This document shows positions 4,824-46,349 of a DNA stretch of 64,000 bases, piece after piece (positions within the stretch are counted from its first letter, which is position 1; each line of letters opens with the position of its first letter). The stretch comes from Gemmatimonadota bacterium (GTDB taxonomy: Bacteria; Gemmatimonadota; Gemmatimonadetes; Gemmatimonadales; Gemmatimonadaceae). A program made the position numbers and the translations under genes. Below the pieces are notes generated by a model, which was not told where the DNA came from, made no database searches, and saw nothing but the letters and a program-made list of their open reading frames with translations. The DNA lies in NCBI GenBank assembly GCA_028287235.1, contig JAQBQB010000028.1, positions 186,001-250,000 of the forward strand, written 5' to 3'.

Positions 4824-6535
4824 TTCGTGGTCATCATGGAATCGCGTTTGGCCTTGAACTCGGTCCCGGCCTTCCACTGCGGGAGCGCGTCCGCTTGTGC
4901 CACCGCGTAGCCGACGCGGAACAGCACCCGCGTGTCCTCGACCCCGCCGGAGAGATCCCAATCGGGCTTCACTTCGTCGGACGGCTTGTGGTAGTCGTTG
5001 GTAGTGTACTCGTCGCGCTTCCGGATGCCGTAACCATTCGGCTTCCCGATGTAGTCGATCCCCGCATCGATGTCGAGCGCCGGCACGCCTTGCTTGGCGA
5101 ACTCGAAGTGATCGGAGCGGTAATAGAACCCCTTCTCGGGCTCGGCGTCGGGGCGCACCGTGCGGTTGTCCGCCTTGAGCACCCCCGTGAGCACGTCGTC
5201 GAGGGTGGAGTTGCCGAGCCCGATCACCGTATAGTCGCTCGTCTTTCCCCACTGGTTCAGGCCGTCCATGTTGATGTTGGCGACCGTCTTGTTGAGCGGG
5301 TACAGCGGATGCGTCGCATAGTACTTCGAGCCGACGAGCCCCTTCTCCTCGGCGGTCACCGAGAGAAAGAGGATCGAGCGGCGCGGCGGCGTGCGCAGCT
5401 TCGTGTAGGCTTTCGCGATCTCTAACAGCGCGGCGCTTCCACTCGCGTTGTCCGCCGCGCCATTGTAAATTTGGTCGCCCTTGAGCGTCGTGTCCTTGCC
5501 GAGGTGGTCCCAGTGCGCCGTGTAGACGACGTACTCGTCCTTCTTGTCGGTGCCCTCGAGCTTCGCGACGATGTTGTGCGACTGGATCTGCCGCGACTCG
5601 ATCTTCACGTCGTAATTCGCCTTGGCGTTGAGCGCGACGGGCTTGAAGTCCTTGCGCGCGGCGGCCGCCTTGAGCGAGTCGAAGTTCTGTCCGGCGGCGG
5701 AGATGATCGCCTTCGCCTTGTCGAGCGTGAGCCAGCCCTCGACGCCGACACGCGTGTCCGCATCCGGTGACAACACGTCAAACTGCTCCTGCGAGTTGCT
5801 GCCGCTGACCACCCCAAAGGGATAGCCCGCGGGACCGGTTTCATGAATGATGATTGCGGCGGCCGCGCCCTTGGCCGACGCGATCTCGTACTTGTAGGTC
5901 CAACGGCCGTAGTAAGTCATCGCGCGGCCCTTGAACATCGCCGTGTCGAGCGCCGTGTCGCCGGCGGCGCGCACCGGCGGATCGTTCACCAGCATGAGGA
6001 TCGTCTTGCCCTTCACGTCCACGCCCTTGTAGTCGTCCCAGCCGTACTCGGGCGCGACGACACCGTAGCCGACGAACACGACGTCGGAGCTCTCGACCTT
6101 CGTCTCTGGGCGCTTGTGGCGCGAGTTCGCGACGAAGTCGTTTGGGTAGGAGAGTGAGATCGTCTTGCCGCCCGCCGTGTACGAGCCGGTGGGATGTGCC
6201 TTGTAGCCGATCAGATCGACGTTCTGCAGGTACGTGCCGTCGGGATTTCCGGGCTTCAGCCCGAGCGCCTTGAACTGCGACTGCATGTAGGCGACGGCCT
6301 TGTCTTCGCCGGGCGTTCCCGGAGCACGGCCTTCCATGGAGTCGGCGGACAGGTCCTTGATGTGTTGCAGCAGGCCGTCGGCGGTGATGGCCTGTCCCGC
6401 GGTATCGGCAGCGGCGGTCGACGGTGCACCGACCGCCTTGTCCGACAGCGCTTTCGAGCACGCGGCAATGGCCACGATCGTGAGCAGCAGCGGAGCGATG
6501 AATCTTCTCTCGCTGCGCCACCGGTCGATGTTCAT
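4820..6535 (-). CDS. M28-family zinc aminopeptidase with PA domain, lipoprotein
   Basis: A 571-residue exported metallopeptidase that probably removes N-terminal residues from peptides. A lipoprotein signal ends in VAIAAC. Next come a segment with [16 protein letters not shown], typical of secreted M28 enzymes, a PA-domain insert around residues 140-300, and the peptidase core. Zinc ligands are visible in order: [19 protein letters not shown] (the catalytic Glu pair), NINMDG and a late SDHFEF. The ATG at 6533-6535 is preferred to a TTG six bases upstream. It is translationally coupled to the downstream MBL gene by a GTGA overlap, so both products are probably made together and act outside the cytoplasm. 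Confidence 0.92.
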
Positions 6536-6565
6536 AGACAAGTGAGAGTCTCTCCGTGTGAGGAT

Positions 6566-7324
6566 TTATGGTTCGCGGTTCTGTTGCCAGGATCCGTACA
6601 TGGGATTCGGGAGAATGAAGTATCTCCTACCGAAGTCGGCAAGCGCGCCGGGATCGTTGCGCGCGGCCTGTGTCATACCCGGGAAATCCAGGATGTTGTC
6701 GCCGATCCACTCGACGACGGTCAGCGGCGGAAGTCCCGGCGCGGCTTCGCCATGCTGCACCCGTTGAAAACGTGGATTCTTGTCGCTCTCCCCGGCGGGT
6801 TGGCACAGGACGACGTCGGCGTCGATGTGCACTGCTCGGAGATTCGTGCGCGTCACATCGCACTGCGCCTGCGTGCGATTGGTCACGACCACCACCCGGC
6901 CGCCGAGTTGATGAACGCGAGCGGTGAACTCGGCCGCGCCCGGTACGGCCGGCGCGGCGCGCTCGTTCACCCAGGCTGCCCAGGTGGGTTCGGTGTAACC
7001 GCTGTCGACGACCGCGCGACGGCGCTGATATTCGGAGTTGTCGAGCACCGTCTCGTCGGCATCCAGAATCACGGCCCACGACTGCGCCGGGAGTCCCTGC
7101 GACAGCTCGGGGAGATGATCGCCCGCCCCGCGATACGCCTGCCGCGCCAGCGCCCGGTACTCGGCGGCCGTGCGAAACCACCGGACATCGTTCGGGAGCT
7201 GGCGCGCTGGCGTTGAAGCCTGCGCCTCCGGCGCCGCGGGCGGCGCAGGCCGGCGCGTGCCGGCCGATGAGCAGGCGGCGACGCACAGCAGCATCGCCGT
7301 GGAGAGAGCTTTGGACGTTGTCAT
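6566..7324 (-). CDS. Acid phosphatase / 5'-nucleotidase, lipoprotein e(P4) family
   Basis: A 252-residue HAD-superfamily phosphatase anchored in the membrane, which usually dephosphorylates extracellular nucleotides to allow nucleoside uptake. The signal peptide ends in CVAACSS. HAD motif I is ILDADETVLDN, motif II is VVVTNRT, and the acidic late motif is EWIGDNILDFPG. The C-terminus RRYFILPNPMYGSWQ is a family signature. It sits 30 bases upstream of the M28 peptidase on the same strand, forming a likely co-transcribed set of secreted scavenging enzymes. Confidence 0.92.
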   Translation of the reverse strand: MTTSKALSTAMLLCVAACSSAGTRRPAPPAAPEAQASTPARQLPNDVRWFRTAAEYRALARQAYRGAGDHLPELSQGLPAQSWAVILDADETVLDNSEYQRRRAVVDSGYTEPTWAAWVNERAAPAVPGAAEFTARVHQLGGRVVVVTNRTQAQCDVTRTNLRAVHIDADVVLCQPAGESDKNPRFQRVQHGEAAPGLPPLTVVEWIGDNILDFPGMTQAARNDPGALADFGRRYFILPNPMYGSWQQNREP

Positions 7325-7446
7325 GAAAGCTGGGTCCGAGCCGGGAGAGACACCTCGTAGAAGGTTAATCAGTGGCGCGCGGGGTCGGCATCGGAGCGCT
7401 TTGATCGCGAATTTTCGCGATCAGACGCCCTCCCAGCCGCCCATGC

Positions 7447-8331
7447 TCAGCGCGCCAACGCCACGAGCACCGTTCCGGCGATGATCAGCCCCGCCCCAAG
7501 CCGCTTCGGGAACCCGAACGGCTCGCCAAGCAGCCGCCAGCCGAGCAGAACGCCGAATGCGACACTCAGCTGCCGGAGCGCGATGACATAGCTCGACGTG
7601 CCCGCGCGCAGCGCGAAGAGCACGAGCAGGTACGTCACGGTATTGAAGAATCCTACTTGTACGATCGCCGAGCGATGGACGCGCCATTCGCCGCGCGCGG
7701 CGGACCAGCCGTATCGGCGGCCAATGTGCGCGGCGTAGGCAAGCGCGACAAAAACAGTGTACGTGTAGAAATAGGTGAACGGCGCCAGCAGGCCAACCGC
7801 GCGCTTGTCCCACACGGTGTATCCCGCGGCGGCCGCCGCGGCGAGCAGCGCGAACAGCGTGGCATTGCTGGACCCGAGCTGTCGTCCGAGGCCGCGAAAA
7901 GAGTCCCACGACACCGAACGAAGTTGGAGGATGACGATGCCAGCCACGACGAGGGCGACGGCCACTTTCCCCACTATGTCGAGGCGCTCGCCGAACACCA
8001 GATACCCGAGGACCGGCAGAAAGAGCAGGACCGCGCCGCGGGAAATGGGATAGACGGTCGACAGGTCGGCGCGGGCATACGCCATGGCCAGCATGACGTA
8101 GTTCGTGAGCGTCAGCGCGGCGCCGACGATGGCGAGTGGCCAGAGCACGCCCGCGTGGCGAGCGGCATCGGCGGCACTGATCACGAGGAACACGGGCGCG
8201 AACAACACCACCTCGGCGATCTTGGTCAGCCCCACGAACAGCTGACCGCCGCGACTCCGCTTGAGAAGAAAATTCCAGTACGCGTGCGTGAACGCCGAGA
8301 CGACGACGAGGAGATACGGAAGGGCGCTCAC
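7447..8331 (-). CDS. EamA/DMT-family transporter
   Basis: A 294-residue, ten-helix membrane protein of the drug/metabolite transporter superfamily, with two internally repeated halves. The first half carries VSAFTHAYWNFLLKRS and SRGAVLLFLPVLGYLVFGERL, the usual EamA signature; the second ends LSVAFGVLLGWRLLGEPFG. Substrate not predictable. The start is GTG at 8329-8331, six bases after the stop of the HipA-like gene, so the two are probably in one transcript with the permease upstream. Confidence 0.85.
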   Translation of the reverse strand: MSALPYLLVVVSAFTHAYWNFLLKRSRGGQLFVGLTKIAEVVLFAPVFLVISAADAARHAGVLWPLAIVGAALTLTNYVMLAMAYARADLSTVYPISRGAVLLFLPVLGYLVFGERLDIVGKVAVALVVAGIVILQLRSVSWDSFRGLGRQLGSSNATLFALLAAAAAAGYTVWDKRAVGLLAPFTYFYTYTVFVALAYAAHIGRRYGWSAARGEWRVHRSAIVQVGFFNTVTYLLVLFALRAGTSSYVIALRQLSVAFGVLLGWRLLGEPFGFPKRLGAGLIIAGTVLVALAR

Positions 8332-41225: not shown

Positions 41226-41732
41226 TCACCCGTCGATGTTCGCCACGGGCATGGGACGCGCAGGGGCATGCCCGCGCTTGTAGACGAGAATCGTACGACG
41301 GAACTCCATCACCACCGTGCCGTCCTGCTTGAACCCCGTGGTCTTGATCTTGACGATGCCCATGGTGGGACGGGAGCCCGACTCGCGCACGCTCAGCACT
41401 TCCGTCTGCGCGTAGATCGTGTCGCCCTCGAACACCGGCGCCGGAAGCGTGACCTCCTCCCAGCCGAGGTTCACCGCGTACTGTGAGACGTCGGCGACGG
41501 AGAGCCCGGTGACGAGCGCCAACGTGAACGTCGAGTTCATGAGCGGTTGGCCGAACTCGGTCTGCGCGGCGTAGTGGCGGTCGAAGTGGATCGGGTTCGG
41601 GTTGCAGGTGAGCAGCGTGAACCAGGTATTGTCGGTCGCCGTCACGGTGCGTCCGATCGGATGGCGGAGCACGTCGCCCACCGTGAAGTCTTCGTAGAAT
41701 CGTCCGCCCTGCTGGCGCGGTGCGTCGTTCAT
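41226..41732 (-). CDS. MaoC-family dehydratase (candidate itaconyl/mesaconyl-CoA hydratase)
   Basis: A 168-residue hot-dog-fold hydratase starting after GGRFYEDFTVGD. The segment TCNPNPIHFDRHYA carries the catalytic Asp and His of R-specific enoyl-CoA hydratases, and FGQPLMNSTFTLAL follows. The length and motif fit hydratases acting on mesaconyl- or itaconyl-CoA type substrates. It is the last gene of a five-gene operon; its ATG overlaps the lyase stop (ATGA) and GGAAGGA precedes it. Confidence 0.88.
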   Translation of the reverse strand: MNDAPRQQGGRFYEDFTVGDVLRHPIGRTVTATDNTWFTLLTCNPNPIHFDRHYAAQTEFGQPLMNSTFTLALVTGLSVADVSQYAVNLGWEEVTLPAPVFEGDTIYAQTEVLSVRESGSRPTMGIVKIKTTGFKQDGTVVMEFRRTILVYKRGHAPARPMPVANIDG

Positions 41733-42631
41733 CGTTCCTTCCCTCCACGAGATTGGTCGAGCACCACGCGCGCCATGCGCGCGCTGGCTTCGTCGATCAT
41801 GGCGCCGTCGAGGCGCGCCGCGCCCTTCCCTTCGGCCGCGGCGCGCTCGCATGCGTCGACCACACGTTGCGCGTGCGCGATCTCCTCGGCCGTGGGACTG
41901 AACACCATGTGCACGGTGGAGATCTGCGACGGGTGAATGCACTGCTTGCCGTCGAAGCCCATCGCGCGCGCGATGCGGCAGGAGCGCGCGAAGCCCGCGG
42001 TATCGGTGTACGCGGCGTACGGGCCGTCCATGGCGCGCAGGCCGTTGGCGCGCGCCGCGGCAACGACGCCGTGCATCACGGCGTGCCACCGGTGCCCGGG
42101 GTAGTCCTCGTCGTTCGCGTCGTGTGCGCCGATGCCAGACGACGGCATGCGCATCGACGCCGCGTAGTCGCCGGGGCCGAAGATCAGCGACTCGAGGCGC
42201 GGCGACGCCTGCGCAATCTCGCGCAGCCAGACGAACCCCGCCGCCGTCTCGATCTGCGCCTCGATGCCGATGCGGCGGGTCAGGCCGCGGTCCATCTCGA
42301 TCTGCGTGAGCAGCCGGTCGACGAAGCGCACGTCGTGTGGCGAGCCGACCTTCGGAATCATCACGAGGTCCAGGTGGTCGCCCGCGGCCTCGACGACGTC
42401 GACGAGGTCGCGATAGGTGTACGACGTGTCGAGCCCGTTGACGCGGAAGATGCGGCGCTTCCCGCCGAAGTCGAGCGTCGTGAGCGCATTGACGACGTTC
42501 GGGCGCGACGCGGCTTTCTGCTCCGTGGGCACGGAGTCCTCGAGGTCGATGCACACCGCGTCGGCCGCGCTCGCCGCCGCTTTGGCGATGACCGCCGGAT
42601 TTCCCGCGGGGACGAACAGCATGCTCCGCAT
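41729..42631 (-). CDS. CitE/HpcH-type CoA ester lyase (candidate citramalyl- or malyl-CoA lyase)
   Basis: A 300-residue TIM-barrel lyase of the CitE-like family that cleaves hydroxyacyl-CoA to acetyl-CoA or propionyl-CoA and a 2-oxoacid. Metal and acid residues are visible: VCIDLEDSVP, IPKVGSPHD, IEAQIETAAG (catalytic Glu region), FGPGDYAASM (metal Asp) and GKQCIHPSQI. It follows the CoA-transferase gene with no space (TAG then ATG) and overlaps the hydratase gene by 4 bases. The exact substrate is not set by sequence. Confidence 0.88.
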   Translation of the reverse strand: MRSMLFVPAGNPAVIAKAAASAADAVCIDLEDSVPTEQKAASRPNVVNALTTLDFGGKRRIFRVNGLDTSYTYRDLVDVVEAAGDHLDLVMIPKVGSPHDVRFVDRLLTQIEMDRGLTRRIGIEAQIETAAGFVWLREIAQASPRLESLIFGPGDYAASMRMPSSGIGAHDANDEDYPGHRWHAVMHGVVAAARANGLRAMDGPYAAYTDTAGFARSCRIARAMGFDGKQCIHPSQISTVHMVFSPTAEEIAHAQRVVDACERAAAEGKGAARLDGAMIDEASARMARVVLDQSRGGKER

Positions 42632-43786
42632 CTATTCTCTCGCTCCGAGCTCGAGAGCGAGCTCCGTCAGCACTTCGTTCGTGTGTTCGCCCAGGGCGGG
42701 CACCGCGCCCATGCGCGGCGGCGCGCCGCGAAGGTTGTGCGGCGGGAGCAGCGCCGGAATGTCGCCGCTCGGCGACGCCACCGTCGTCCACCGGCCGCGC
42801 GCGGCGAGCTGTGGATGCGCGGCGACCGCCGGCACGTCGTTCACGCTACCCGTGGGAATGTCCGCCGCCTCGAGCCAGCCGAGGACGACTGACTTGGCGT
42901 GCTCGCGGAAGCGATGCTCGATCAGCGCCTCGAGCGCCTCGCGGTGCTGCAAGCGCAGTGCGTTGCTGACGAAGCGCGCGTCGTCGGCGAGCGCGGGCTG
43001 GGCCATCACACCGCCGCAGAAGCGGCGCCACTCGCGGTCGTTCTGGATCGCGAACATCACGGCGCCGTCGGCACAGGGGTACGCGCCGTACGGGACGATC
43101 ATGTTGTGCCGCACGCCGGCTCGGGCGGGCACCTTGCCCGTACCCTGCCACACCGAGAGCGGAGGCGACATCCATTCGGTGAGGCACTCGAGCATCGCAA
43201 TGTCGATGCGGTCGCCGCGGCCGGTGATGCCGCGCTGGATGAGCGCCGTGAGGATCGACGAGTAGGCGTACAGCCCCGACGAGATGTCGGCCATCGAGAC
43301 GCCGACCTTCGCGGGCGCGTCGGGCGTGCCGGTCATGGCGATCACCCCCGACTCCGCCTGCACGAGCATGTCGTACGCCTTGGAGTCGCGGCGCGGACCG
43401 TCGGGGCCGTAGCCCGAGATGCCGCACCAGATGAGCCGATGATGATGCGCCGTCAACGTGTCGTAGCCGAAGCCGAGCCGCTCGACGGCGCCCGGCGCGA
43501 GGTTGTGGACGAATACGTCCGCTCGCTCCAGCAGCCGCTCGCACGCGTCATGATCGTTCTTTAATGACAAATCCAGCATGACGCTGCGCTTGCCGCGGTT
43601 GAGCCAGGCGAAATACGCCGACTCGCCGTGCAGCGCGCTGTCGTATGCCCGCGACGGATCGCCGGCGCCGGGGCGCTCGATCTTGACGACGTCCGCGCCC
43701 ATGTCCGCGAGCTGGCGCGAGCAGAACGGCGCCGCCACCGCCTGCTCCAGCGCGACGACCCGCAACCCGCTGAGGGGACCGTTCAA
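42632..43786 (-). CDS. CaiB/BaiF-family CoA-transferase
   Basis: A 384-residue class III CoA-transferase. The N-terminus reads LSGLRVVALEQAVAAPFCSR, followed by LADMGADVVKIERPGAGDPS, GKRSVMLDL and the region YDMLVQAESGVIAMTGTPD, whose first Asp is the usual catalytic aspartate. The TTG start at 43784-43786 overlaps the stop of the dehydrogenase gene (TTGA) and has GAGG five bases upstream. It probably activates the dicarboxylic acid used by the operon with succinyl-CoA or another donor. Confidence 0.87.
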   Translation of the reverse strand: MNGPLSGLRVVALEQAVAAPFCSRQLADMGADVVKIERPGAGDPSRAYDSALHGESAYFAWLNRGKRSVMLDLSLKNDHDACERLLERADVFVHNLAPGAVERLGFGYDTLTAHHHRLIWCGISGYGPDGPRRDSKAYDMLVQAESGVIAMTGTPDAPAKVGVSMADISSGLYAYSSILTALIQRGITGRGDRIDIAMLECLTEWMSPPLSVWQGTGKVPARAGVRHNMIVPYGAYPCADGAVMFAIQNDREWRRFCGGVMAQPALADDARFVSNALRLQHREALEALIEHRFREHAKSVVLGWLEAADIPTGSVNDVPAVAAHPQLAARGRWTTVASPSGDIPALLPPHNLRGAPPRMGAVPALGEHTNEVLTELALELGARE

Positions 43787-44952
43787 AAGGACCTCGGCAT
43801 CTCCAACACGTGCTCCCCAAGGTACGAGAGAATGAGATTCGTCGACACCGGTGCGACTTGATAGAGCCGCGTCTCGCGAAACTTGCGCTCCACGTCGAAT
43901 TCCGCGGCGAACCCCAGCCCGCCGTGCGTCTGGAGACACACGTTGGCCGCCTCCCACGAGGAATCCGCCGCGAGCAGCTTGGCCATGTTCGCCTCGGCGC
44001 CGCACGGCAGACCGGCGTCGTAGAGTCGCGCCGCTTCGTAGCGCATGAGGTCCGCGGCGCGCACGTTCGCGTACGAGCGCGCGATGGGAAACTGCACGCC
44101 TTGGTTCTGGCCGATCGGCCGGTCGAAGACGGTCCGCTCCCGCGCGTACTTCCGCGCCCGGTCGACGAACCAATACCCGTCGCCGATGCACTCGGCGGCG
44201 ATGAGGATCCGCTCGGCGTTCATCCCGTCGAGGATGTACCGAAACCCTCTGCCTTCCTCGCCGATCAGATTCTCCGCGGGAATCTCGAAGTCGTCGAAGA
44301 AGACTTCGTTCGTCTCGTGGTTGACCATGTTGCGAATGGGCCGCACCGCGAGACCGCGCGACTCGGCGTCGCGCAAGTCTATGAGAAAAACCGAAAGCCC
44401 TTCGGCCTTTCGAGTCACGTCGGCCAGCGGCGTCGTGCGTGCGAGCAGCAGCATCAGATCGGAATGCTGCACGCGCGAGATCCACATCTTCTGCCCATTC
44501 ACGACGTAGCGATCGCCCCGCCGCTCGGCGAAGGTCTTGATCTTCGTCGTGTCGGTGCCCGCCGACGGCTCGGTGACGGCGAACGACTGCAGGCGTAGCT
44601 CGCCCCGCGCGATCGCCGGCAGGTAGCGCTGCTTCTGCTCGGCCGATCCGTGGCGCAGCAGCGTGCCCATGATGTACATCTGCGCGTGGCAGGCGCCGGA
44701 GTTCGCGCCCGAGCGATTGACCTCCTCGAGAATCACCGACGCTTCGGTGACACCGAGCCCTCCACCGCCGTACTCGGTGGGAATGAGCGCCGCGAGCCAG
44801 CCGGCGTCGGTGAGCGCCTGGACAAATTTCTCCGGGTATTCGGCGCGGGAGTCCACGTCCTGCCAATAGTCGCTACCGAAGCGGCTGCACAGATCGCGAA
44901 TGGCCTGACGATACTCGGCGTGATCGGCGGCGCGCGGGTTGATCTCCTTCAT
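43783..44952 (-). CDS. Acyl-CoA dehydrogenase
   Basis: A 389-residue FAD enzyme. Visible family marks are IPTEYGGGGLG, FAVTEPSAGTDTTKIKT (FAD contact), WISRVQHSDL, ERILIAAECIGDGYWFVD, FDRPIGQNQG and the C-terminal LQTHGGLGFAAEFDVERKFR, with the expected end-loop. It is the second gene of the C5-dicarboxylate operon, in ATGA overlap with the MmgE/PrpD gene upstream and TTGA with the CoA-transferase gene. A saturated methyl-branched acyl-CoA such as methylsuccinyl-CoA is a possible substrate. Confidence 0.9.
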   Translation of the reverse strand: MKEINPRAADHAEYRQAIRDLCSRFGSDYWQDVDSRAEYPEKFVQALTDAGWLAALIPTEYGGGGLGVTEASVILEEVNRSGANSGACHAQMYIMGTLLRHGSAEQKQRYLPAIARGELRLQSFAVTEPSAGTDTTKIKTFAERRGDRYVVNGQKMWISRVQHSDLMLLLARTTPLADVTRKAEGLSVFLIDLRDAESRGLAVRPIRNMVNHETNEVFFDDFEIPAENLIGEEGRGFRYILDGMNAERILIAAECIGDGYWFVDRARKYARERTVFDRPIGQNQGVQFPIARSYANVRAADLMRYEAARLYDAGLPCGAEANMAKLLAADSSWEAANVCLQTHGGLGFAAEFDVERKFRETRLYQVAPVSTNLILSYLGEHVLEMPRSF

Positions 44953-46349
44953 GCGACGTGCGCTTCGGCGGGAAGCAGATCGCGAAAGTGCGTGGACATG
45001 TCGCGGCAGGAGGCGATGGAGTGAACGAGCTCGATCGCGCGCTGCGCAACGTCGGGGCCGAAGCGCGGCGCTACGAGCGCCGTGAGCTTCGCCTCGAGCT
45101 CGTGGGTGGTGACCGGGTTCTCGGGATTGCCGCGCGGGAAATCGGCCGCTCCGCGCAGCACCGTACCGTCGGTGAGCTCGATCTCGATGCGCGTTGGCCA
45201 TGCGGCGGGATACTTCGCGGTGAGGTCCTGCGCGACGGTCACGGTCGTCTTGCCGAGGAGCGACGCAATGGCTGGGTCGCGCACGCCGGCGGAGCCGAAT
45301 CGCTCGGCGGTGAACTGCTCGAGGCCCACGCGACCCTCAGCGAGCGCGGCGGCCACGACGTACGCGATGCTGAACTGGCCGCGGTACGGAGAGCTCGGGT
45401 TCGGTTCCTTCACGATCTCGTAGCCGGAGCCGTAGGTCGCGATGCGGATGCTCGCGATTTTGTCGATCGGCGCTTGGGCGCGAAGGTCGAGCGCGACGTC
45501 GATCGCCGAATGGGTGTGGCCGCAGCACGAATGCATCTTGTAGCAGTTCTCGCCGATCTTCCACCGGCTTCCGAGCCCCTCGGTGATGCGCGTCGCGTCG
45601 GCGGAGCGCGTGGTGGCGCGGAAGAAGCCTCGTTCGCCCTCGAGGATGCGCGTCGCGCCGGTGAAGCCGGCGGCGGCGAGGTCGGCGGCGAGCACGCCGT
45701 TCATCGCGGCCTTGCCGGGATGTAAGTGTTTGCTCATGGCGCCGTCGGCGTTGAACTCCCACAGGCCGGCCGCCTGCGTGCCAGCGGTGCCGAGCGCATC
45801 GGACATCTGGCGGGCATCGAGCCCGAGCAGGCTTCCCGCGGCCGCGGCTGCGCCGAACGTTGCCGCCGTGCCGGTCGGATGGAAGAAGCGATAGTGATCG
45901 GGATTCACCGCCTCGCCAACGCGGAGCGCGGCCTCGTAGCCCAGCGCCACGGCCAGCAGAAACGCCTCGCCGCTCGCGTGCTCGCGCTCCGCCACGGCGA
46001 GCGCCGCGGGAATGACCGGCGCGGCGGCGTGGAGCGTGGAGCCCTTGTGCACGTCGTCGAGCTCGAGGATGTGTGACGCGACGCCATTGGCGAGCGCGGC
46101 GGCCGCCGCCGACGCGCGCGGCGCGCTGAACACGGTCGCGTCGGCGGAGACGCCGAAGCCGGCAACGACTCGCTGCGCCATGCGGGCCGGCTGCTCGATC
46201 GAGCCGGCCAGAGCGGATCCGAGCCAGTCGAGAATGGCGCGGCTGGTGTCGGCGAGCACGTCGAGCGGGAGATCGGTGTAGCGCGCGGCGGACATCGCGT
46301 TTGCCAGGGCGGCGCTGACGCCTTCGCTTGAATTCGGTGAGGATTGCAT
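44949..46349 (-). CDS. MmgE/PrpD family protein
   Basis: A 466-residue protein of the family that includes 2-methylcitrate dehydratase and cis-aconitate decarboxylase. It has the usual signatures: AILDWLGSALAGSI near the N-terminus, NGVASHILELDDVHKGSTLH, GTAATFGAAAAAG, KHLHPGKAAMNG and SCCGHTHSAIDVAL. These positions are the catalytic region of the family. It starts the five-gene operon, divergent from the nucleotidyltransferase gene at 46499. The ATG at 46347-46349 is used; an ATG seven codons upstream is possible. Its reaction is not determined. Confidence 0.87.
   Translation of the reverse strand: MQSSPNSSEGVSAALANAMSAARYTDLPLDVLADTSRAILDWLGSALAGSIEQPARMAQRVVAGFGVSADATVFSAPRASAAAAALANGVASHILELDDVHKGSTLHAAAPVIPAALAVAEREHASGEAFLLAVALGYEAALRVGEAVNPDHYRFFHPTGTAATFGAAAAAGSLLGLDARQMSDALGTAGTQAAGLWEFNADGAMSKHLHPGKAAMNGVLAADLAAAGFTGATRILEGERGFFRATTRSADATRITEGLGSRWKIGENCYKMHSCCGHTHSAIDVALDLRAQAPIDKIASIRIATYGSGYEIVKEPNPSSPYRGQFSIAYVVAAALAEGRVGLEQFTAERFGSAGVRDPAIASLLGKTTVTVAQDLTAKYPAAWPTRIEIELTDGTVLRGAADFPRGNPENPVTTHELEAKLTALVAPRFGPDVAQRAIELVHSIASCRDMSTHFRDLLPAEAHVA

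Follow-up and report, generated by a model that had tools for sequence, protein, structure and literature searches.

Five-gene operon and its predicted pathway

Which compound is degraded by the five enzymes encoded side by side at positions 41226-46349, on the minus strand, of the analysed Gemmatimonadota bacterium DNA? The whole stretch of 64,000 nucleotides (contig JAQBQB010000028.1, assembly GCA_028287235.1) is referred to here as the window. The operon possesses genes for an MmgE/PrpD protein, an acyl-coenzyme A (acyl-CoA) dehydrogenase, a CaiB/BaiF CoA-transferase, a CitE-like lyase and a MaoC hydratase. An earlier note, made from the letters alone, had described these co-directional genes with their families and junctions, and both the sequence and Pfam confirm this description. 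Each of the five proteins was assigned to its Pfam family far above cut-off, and the genes are joined by ATGA (44952-44949), TTGA (43786-43783), TAG-ATG (42634-42629) and ATGA (41732-41729) junctions. As substrate the note further proposed itaconate, mesaconate or methylsuccinate, and this proposal is supported by the relatedness of the operon to a gene cluster of P. aeruginosa. On the basis of sequence comparison, the likely products of the operon are acetyl-CoA and pyruvate, formed from methylsuccinate and probably also from itaconate. Of the candidate substrates, methylsuccinate, a C5 branched acid akin to itaconate, fits best, because its use depends on the dehydrogenase and isomerase genes and that of itaconate does not (PMC12290011, PMC9875883). 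By deletion, the genes of the methylsuccinyl-C4-CoA dehydrogenase (Mcd) and the methylsuccinate isomerase (Msi) were found not to be required on itaconate, while they were required on methylsuccinate or on a single enantiomer of it (PMC9875883).

In the predicted pathway, the MmgE/PrpD protein would interconvert (S)- and (R)-methylsuccinate, and the CaiB/BaiF transferase would shift CoA from succinyl-CoA to C4 of (R)-methylsuccinate. The FAD dehydrogenase would then form mesaconyl-C4-CoA, the MaoC protein would hydrate it to (S)-citramalyl-CoA, and the lyase would split this product into acetyl-CoA and pyruvate. If isomerisation of itaconyl-CoA is a further activity of the hydratase, itaconate could join at the transferase step. 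For the isomerase, transferase and dehydrogenase steps, the prediction is drawn from related enzymes that have been assayed in P. aeruginosa and C. necator. The hydratase and lyase steps are deduced from family, residues and pathway context, since the Ich and Ccl assayed for P. aeruginosa are of different lineages from these two proteins.

Relation to known gene clusters

The pathway type is already known and was published in 2023-2025 for Pseudomonas and Cupriavidus. The functions of the P. aeruginosa cluster proteins have been assayed (PMC12290011, PMC9875883). As a reference set, the proteins encoded on the P. aeruginosa plasmid NZ_CP131792 in PLSDB (707371-724585) were used. This locus possesses MaoC, dehydrogenase, VOC protein, MmgE, transferase, lyase and TRAP transporter genes, the same set as PA0878-PA0886. 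It was taken as the PA0878-PA0886 cluster because its lyase is identical to PDB chains 8khl/9nzb in 274 of 275 residues and its gene order is that of PMC9875883. The plasmid itself, of 847 kb, is typed as conjugative and carries the complete PA0878-PA0886-like cluster including the TRAP transporter.

The window operon shares a common five-enzyme logic with P. aeruginosa PA0878-PA0883 and C. necator E6A55_22580-22600. The acyl-CoA dehydrogenase (43783-44952) showed 70% identity by BLAST over 386 residues, the full length, to PA0879-type Mcd, and is probably an orthologous (RS)-methylsuccinyl-C4-CoA dehydrogenase. The class III CoA-transferase (42632-43786), which starts with TTG, matched PF02515 with 375 bits and is 52% identical over 376 residues to PA0882-type Ict. 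By this similarity it is a probable succinyl-CoA:methylsuccinate/itaconate CoA-transferase. The MmgE protein is 40% identical to PA0881-type Msi and possesses the same catalytic residues. In contrast, the lyase is only 33% identical to PA0883 Ccl and falls in another clade, the hydratase gave no BLAST match to PA0878-type Ich at E 1e-3, and the VOC lactonase, TRAP transporter and LysR genes of the known clusters are not found in the window operon. The operon thus represents a known type of five-gene cluster, in a variant form with a hydratase and a lyase from other lineages and in a phylum which was not highlighted before. Methylsuccinate breakdown was demonstrated only recently and almost entirely in Pseudomonadota, and the operon would extend this pathway to Gemmatimonadota, Acidobacteriota and Deinococcota.

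Comparison with ripABC of Y. pestis showed a different pattern of likeness. The hydratase is best matched by the RipB_Ich model and the lyase scored 185 bits with RipC_Ccl (cut-off 375), outside the RipC clade in the tree. Neither curated cut-off was reached. The dehydrogenase and MmgE genes are extra in the window operon, and its transferase is of the Ict-like CaiB/BaiF type.

MmgE/PrpD protein

The first gene of the operon (44949-46349) encodes a PF03972/PF19305 protein which the earlier note had likened to cis-aconitate decarboxylase. This likeness was not borne out, as both residues and tree are isomerase-like. Seven residues were proposed for Msi, namely His88, Glu91, His102, Tyr148, His152, Lys202 and Lys266 (PMC12290011), and in the alignment all seven are present in the window protein. 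His107, Tyr153, His157, Lys207 and Lys271 of the window correspond to Msi His102, Tyr148, His152, Lys202 and Lys266, while Glu96 aligns with Msi Glu91. The His, Lys and Lys residues are common to cis-aconitate decarboxylase, IDS epimerase and PrpD, which belong to the same protein family. However, cis-aconitate decarboxylase (PDB 12vw) lacks the tyrosine at the position of Msi Tyr148, and the position of Glu91 is occupied by aspartic acid in both the decarboxylase and IDS epimerase.

The phylogenetic tree grouped the window-type MmgE proteins (13 rows from Gemmatimonadota, Acidobacteriota and Deinococcus) in a clade with 100/100 support. This clade, joined by two relatives from Bacillota and a distant row from Gemmatimonadota, is sister to the Msi clade (100/98), so that the window protein lies beside the assayed isomerases and not among them. 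Neither group includes IDS epimerase or the decarboxylase, and long branches leave the outgroup order unsure. Functions as cis-aconitate decarboxylase or 2-methylcitrate dehydratase (PrpD) were rejected from residues and scores, as the window protein has the Msi-like Tyr153 and Glu96 and the PrpD models gave 37-59 bits against cut-offs of 458-950. The protein is a probable (S)-(R)-methylsuccinate isomerase.

Lyase and hydratase

The HpcH/HpaI-type lyase (41729-42631) belongs to a clade of 15 window-type sequences with 98/99 support. This clade is sister to the malyl-CoA lyases (joint support 100/99) and apart from both PA0883 Ccl and Y. pestis RipC. The expectation that the protein is the counterpart of P. 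aeruginosa Ccl does not hold, as the two are not orthologous. Grouping of the lyase or hydratase with citrate-lyase beta subunits or fatty-acyl enzymes, which the earlier note had named as the outcome that would speak against its proposal, was not seen. An ordinary citrate-lyase beta function of the lyase is disfavoured by the tree, though TIGR01588 is the top NCBIfam match at half its cut-off.

Residue conservation in the lyase clade was compared with the malyl-CoA/beta-methylmalyl-CoA lyases of R. sphaeroides (Mcl1, 4l9y), Methylobacterium (5ugr) and Chloroflexus (4l7z). The catalytic Arg76, Glu141, Asp168 and Asp299 of Mcl1 are kept in all 15 window-type lyases. A proline and a tryptophan near the pyruvate methyl group are conserved in malyl-CoA lyases, and Mcl1 itself is already able to form some citramalyl-CoA (Zarzycki and Kerfeld, PMC3832036). 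The alignment column of the tryptophan is fixed by the Pro-Trp spacing of 26, found in HaloMS numbering (PMC3832036) and in Mcl1. In the window clade the pocket proline is kept, whereas the tryptophan of the three malyl-CoA lyases is replaced by glutamine in all 15 members (Gln230 in the window), and the operon setting is that of C5 dicarboxylates. PA0883 has leucine at this position, RipC has alanine, and human CLYBL, a citramalyl-CoA lyase, also has glutamine. We infer that the change from tryptophan to glutamine opens the pocket for citramalyl-CoA, and the window protein is a probable (S)-citramalyl-CoA lyase. This relative of malyl-CoA lyase carries a one-residue signature which is directly testable.

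The last gene (41226-41732) encodes a single-domain MaoC-type hydratase, a probable mesaconyl-C4-CoA hydratase, in which Asn44, His49 and Asp51 are invariant across a 14-sequence alignment. Like the lyase, it is not orthologous to the P. aeruginosa enzyme (Ich) to which it had been compared, and is instead RipB/Ich-related. The protein resembles a C5-dicarboxyl-CoA hydratase, and one from the Y. pestis-like lineage more than from that of P. aeruginosa.

Alternative explanations

Several observations weigh against methylsuccinate as the substrate. The best NCBIfam match of the hydratase, RipB_Ich with 195 bits, is below the cut-off of 340, and the protein is not classed as RipB for this reason. 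The nearest solved relatives of the lyase are malyl-CoA/beta-methylmalyl-CoA lyases. The flanking genes include no uptake system linked to the operon. The exact substrate of the MmgE protein could differ, because its identity to assayed Msi is only 40% and its clade is a separate one, and the Msi pocket could accommodate larger C3-substituted substrates (PMC12290011).

These points leave room for three other readings. The hydratase and lyase might act on the C1 ester as in the ethylmalonyl-CoA pathway, converting mesaconyl-C1-CoA through beta-methylmalyl-CoA to propionyl-CoA and glyoxylate. The sister position of the lyase clade fits this reading, and so does the hydratase, which matched the Pfam mesaconyl-CoA hydratase family PF19315 with 74 bits and has beta-methylmalyl-CoA dehydratase 8hgn as its top PDB match. 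Yet it is unlikely, since the dehydrogenase is a close relative of a C4-specific enzyme (PMC12290011), the pocket tryptophan is lost throughout the lyase clade, and the single-domain hydratase scored far better with RipB_Ich than with the next NCBIfam model, haloarchaeal 2-methylfumaryl-CoA hydratase (73 bits). Slightly less probable still is a larger or differently substituted succinate, such as 2,3-dimethylsuccinate or another C3-substituted acid, which would yield pyruvate and propionyl-CoA or another acyl-CoA. The separate MmgE clade and the Msi pocket, which may accept C3 modifications (PMC12290011), would agree with such a substrate, and the malyl-CoA-lyase ancestry would permit propionyl-CoA, but the dehydrogenase and transferase remain near methylsuccinate-active enzymes. 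Finally, the presence of an Ict-like transferase and a RipB/Ich-related hydratase would suit a main role in itaconate detoxification or degradation with the dehydrogenase and MmgE genes as passengers. This is very improbable, as these two genes lead the operon, are retained in orthologous operons and are unnecessary for growth on itaconate (PMC9875883). Degradation of methylsuccinate thus remains the preferred reading.

Distribution of the operon

Among 298 sampled Gemmatimonadota genomes the genes are patchy. The hydratase was detected at E 1e-20 or better in 14 genomes and a close MmgE (at least 64% identity) in eight, the window's own included, while two genomes sampled from the genus of the window lack the hydratase. 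In the seven other genomes with a close MmgE, most or all of the five genes are neighbours, with an order that differs in part, and one of these genomes has the pieces on two contigs. Most or all core genes are also grouped in metagenome-assembled genomes (MAGs) of Acidobacteriota and on two Deinococcus plasmids. The recurrence of the same genes together in relatives from all three groups indicates that their grouping is not due to chance. The hydratase alignment was also searched against 84,980 species, which gave 80 named loci from many phyla. When loci obtained in other ways were added, 49 contained a dehydrogenase with 57% or higher identity to the reference set, a few of these 49 being repeated views of one place.

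A window-type MaoC gene was also found on a MAG contig titled Klebsiella pneumoniae (L128, 3487-3996), a title which may be a mislabel. In Anoxybacillus sediminis (L107, 9992-20336), a window-like MmgE (53%) follows genes which, by our own reading of the sequence, appear to encode succinyl-CoA synthetase. MaoC and TRAP transporter genes are nearby and succinate-dehydrogenase-like genes lie downstream of MmgE. The synthetase may be used here in place of the CoA-transferase.

Additional genes in related operons

Several related operons from Gemmatimonadota, Deinococcus and Actinomycetota contain other genes along with the core. The longest set, L033, is composed of ten co-directional and mostly overlapping or abutting genes in genome G152. 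They encode, in order, MmgE, dehydrogenase, lyase, MaoC, a succinate-semialdehyde dehydrogenase (SSADH)-like enzyme (569 bits, cut-off 646), a two-subunit thiamine-diphosphate decarboxylase which is sulfopyruvate-decarboxylase-like and below cut-off, a DAO-family oxidase, the transferase and a Rid hydrolase (above cut-off). Two further loci (L036 and L064) have this set with no Rid gene seen, and in another (L034) the SSADH-like gene is missing from it. The decarboxylase pair is also situated beside the core in a Pseudonocardiaceae locus.

The two Deinococcus plasmids (L027 and L028) add PxpA, another aldehyde dehydrogenase (ALDH) and a short-chain dehydrogenase/reductase (SDR), with a PxpB-PxpC fusion in one. 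Their gaps are complementary, one lacking this fusion and the other the lyase between transferase and MaoC. A Nanopelagicales locus (L126) shows PxpA, PxpBC, an acetolactate-synthase-like enzyme, transferase, ALDH, SDR and DAO genes adjoining lyase and MaoC. Its SDR is 54% identical to the Deinococcus SDR, while its acyl-CoA dehydrogenase is only 32% identical and so not an Mcd orthologue. In G127, from the same family as the window genome, an acetolactate-synthase-like gene overlaps MmgE by 4 bases. The adjacency of PxpA and the dehydrogenase there is weak as a single case, since it is the genome's only PxpA. G183 has a second acetolactate-synthase-like enzyme with a Deinococcus-type SDR and a caprolactamase-like A/B pair.

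The G127-type acetolactate-synthase-like enzyme (at least 50% identity) occurs in 4 of the 298 genomes, all four with core genes. The hypergeometric estimate of 4e-6 for this co-occurrence is overstated, because the query came from one of the four genomes and another shares its genus. The linkage of the extra genes is likewise a description with no background comparison, as the loci were chosen for holding core genes.

Possible origin of methylsuccinate

The natural origin of methylsuccinate in soil is an open question (PMC12290011). The extra genes suggest that the cell may form it from a compound resembling methylglutamate or methylpyroglutamate. It is possible, though doubtful, that an undescribed route starts from methyl-branched glutamate or its lactam and passes through methylsuccinate, with the window operon as its lower half. 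In such a route an ATP-dependent lactamase (PxpABC or the caprolactamase-like pair) would open a methylpyroglutamate-like lactam, and a DAO-family oxidase with the Rid hydrolase would deaminate the methylglutamate. The thiamine-diphosphate enzyme would decarboxylate the resulting methyl-2-oxoglutarate, and the SSADH-type dehydrogenase would oxidise methylsuccinic semialdehyde to methylsuccinate for the five window enzymes. We infer the identities of these compounds from the enzymes: the semialdehyde from the SSADH-type enzyme, methyl-2-oxoglutarate from the decarboxylase, methylglutamate from the amino-acid oxidase and Rid, and methylpyroglutamate from the lactamases.

No described pathway for the degradation of methylsuccinic semialdehyde or methylglutamate was found in the open literature, which is weak evidence of absence. 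Neither the acetolactate-synthase-like decarboxylase nor the shared SDR had a match in the window's own genome, nor did a 60-residue query taken from the alpha subunit of the two-subunit decarboxylase, and for this reason the window would display the lower half alone. PxpA and SSADH-like genes are present in this genome elsewhere, unlinked to the operon. The earlier suggestion of an intracellular origin of the substrate was drawn from the lack of a linked transporter or regulator. The flanking genes bear out this lack, and decarboxylase, aldehyde dehydrogenase and oxidase genes in sister operons give the suggestion indirect support, but neither linked decarboxylase type was found in the window's own genome. 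Greater novelty lies in the upstream module, which is still a proposal. If true, it would supply soil bacteria with methylsuccinate from within the cell, and the sister operons with their decarboxylase, aldehyde dehydrogenase, oxidase and lactamase genes make it a concrete and testable proposal.

The genes on both sides of the window operon point against its direction, and a scan for promoters and terminators gave nothing above chance. In G075, of genus g70, the genes of a two-subunit decarboxylase and those of an Mcd-type dehydrogenase (63%) and an Ich of the P. aeruginosa type (42%) run in diverging directions (L159, 7878-9091 with 5679-7984), and this type of alpha subunit recurs in 12 further genomes of the same genus.

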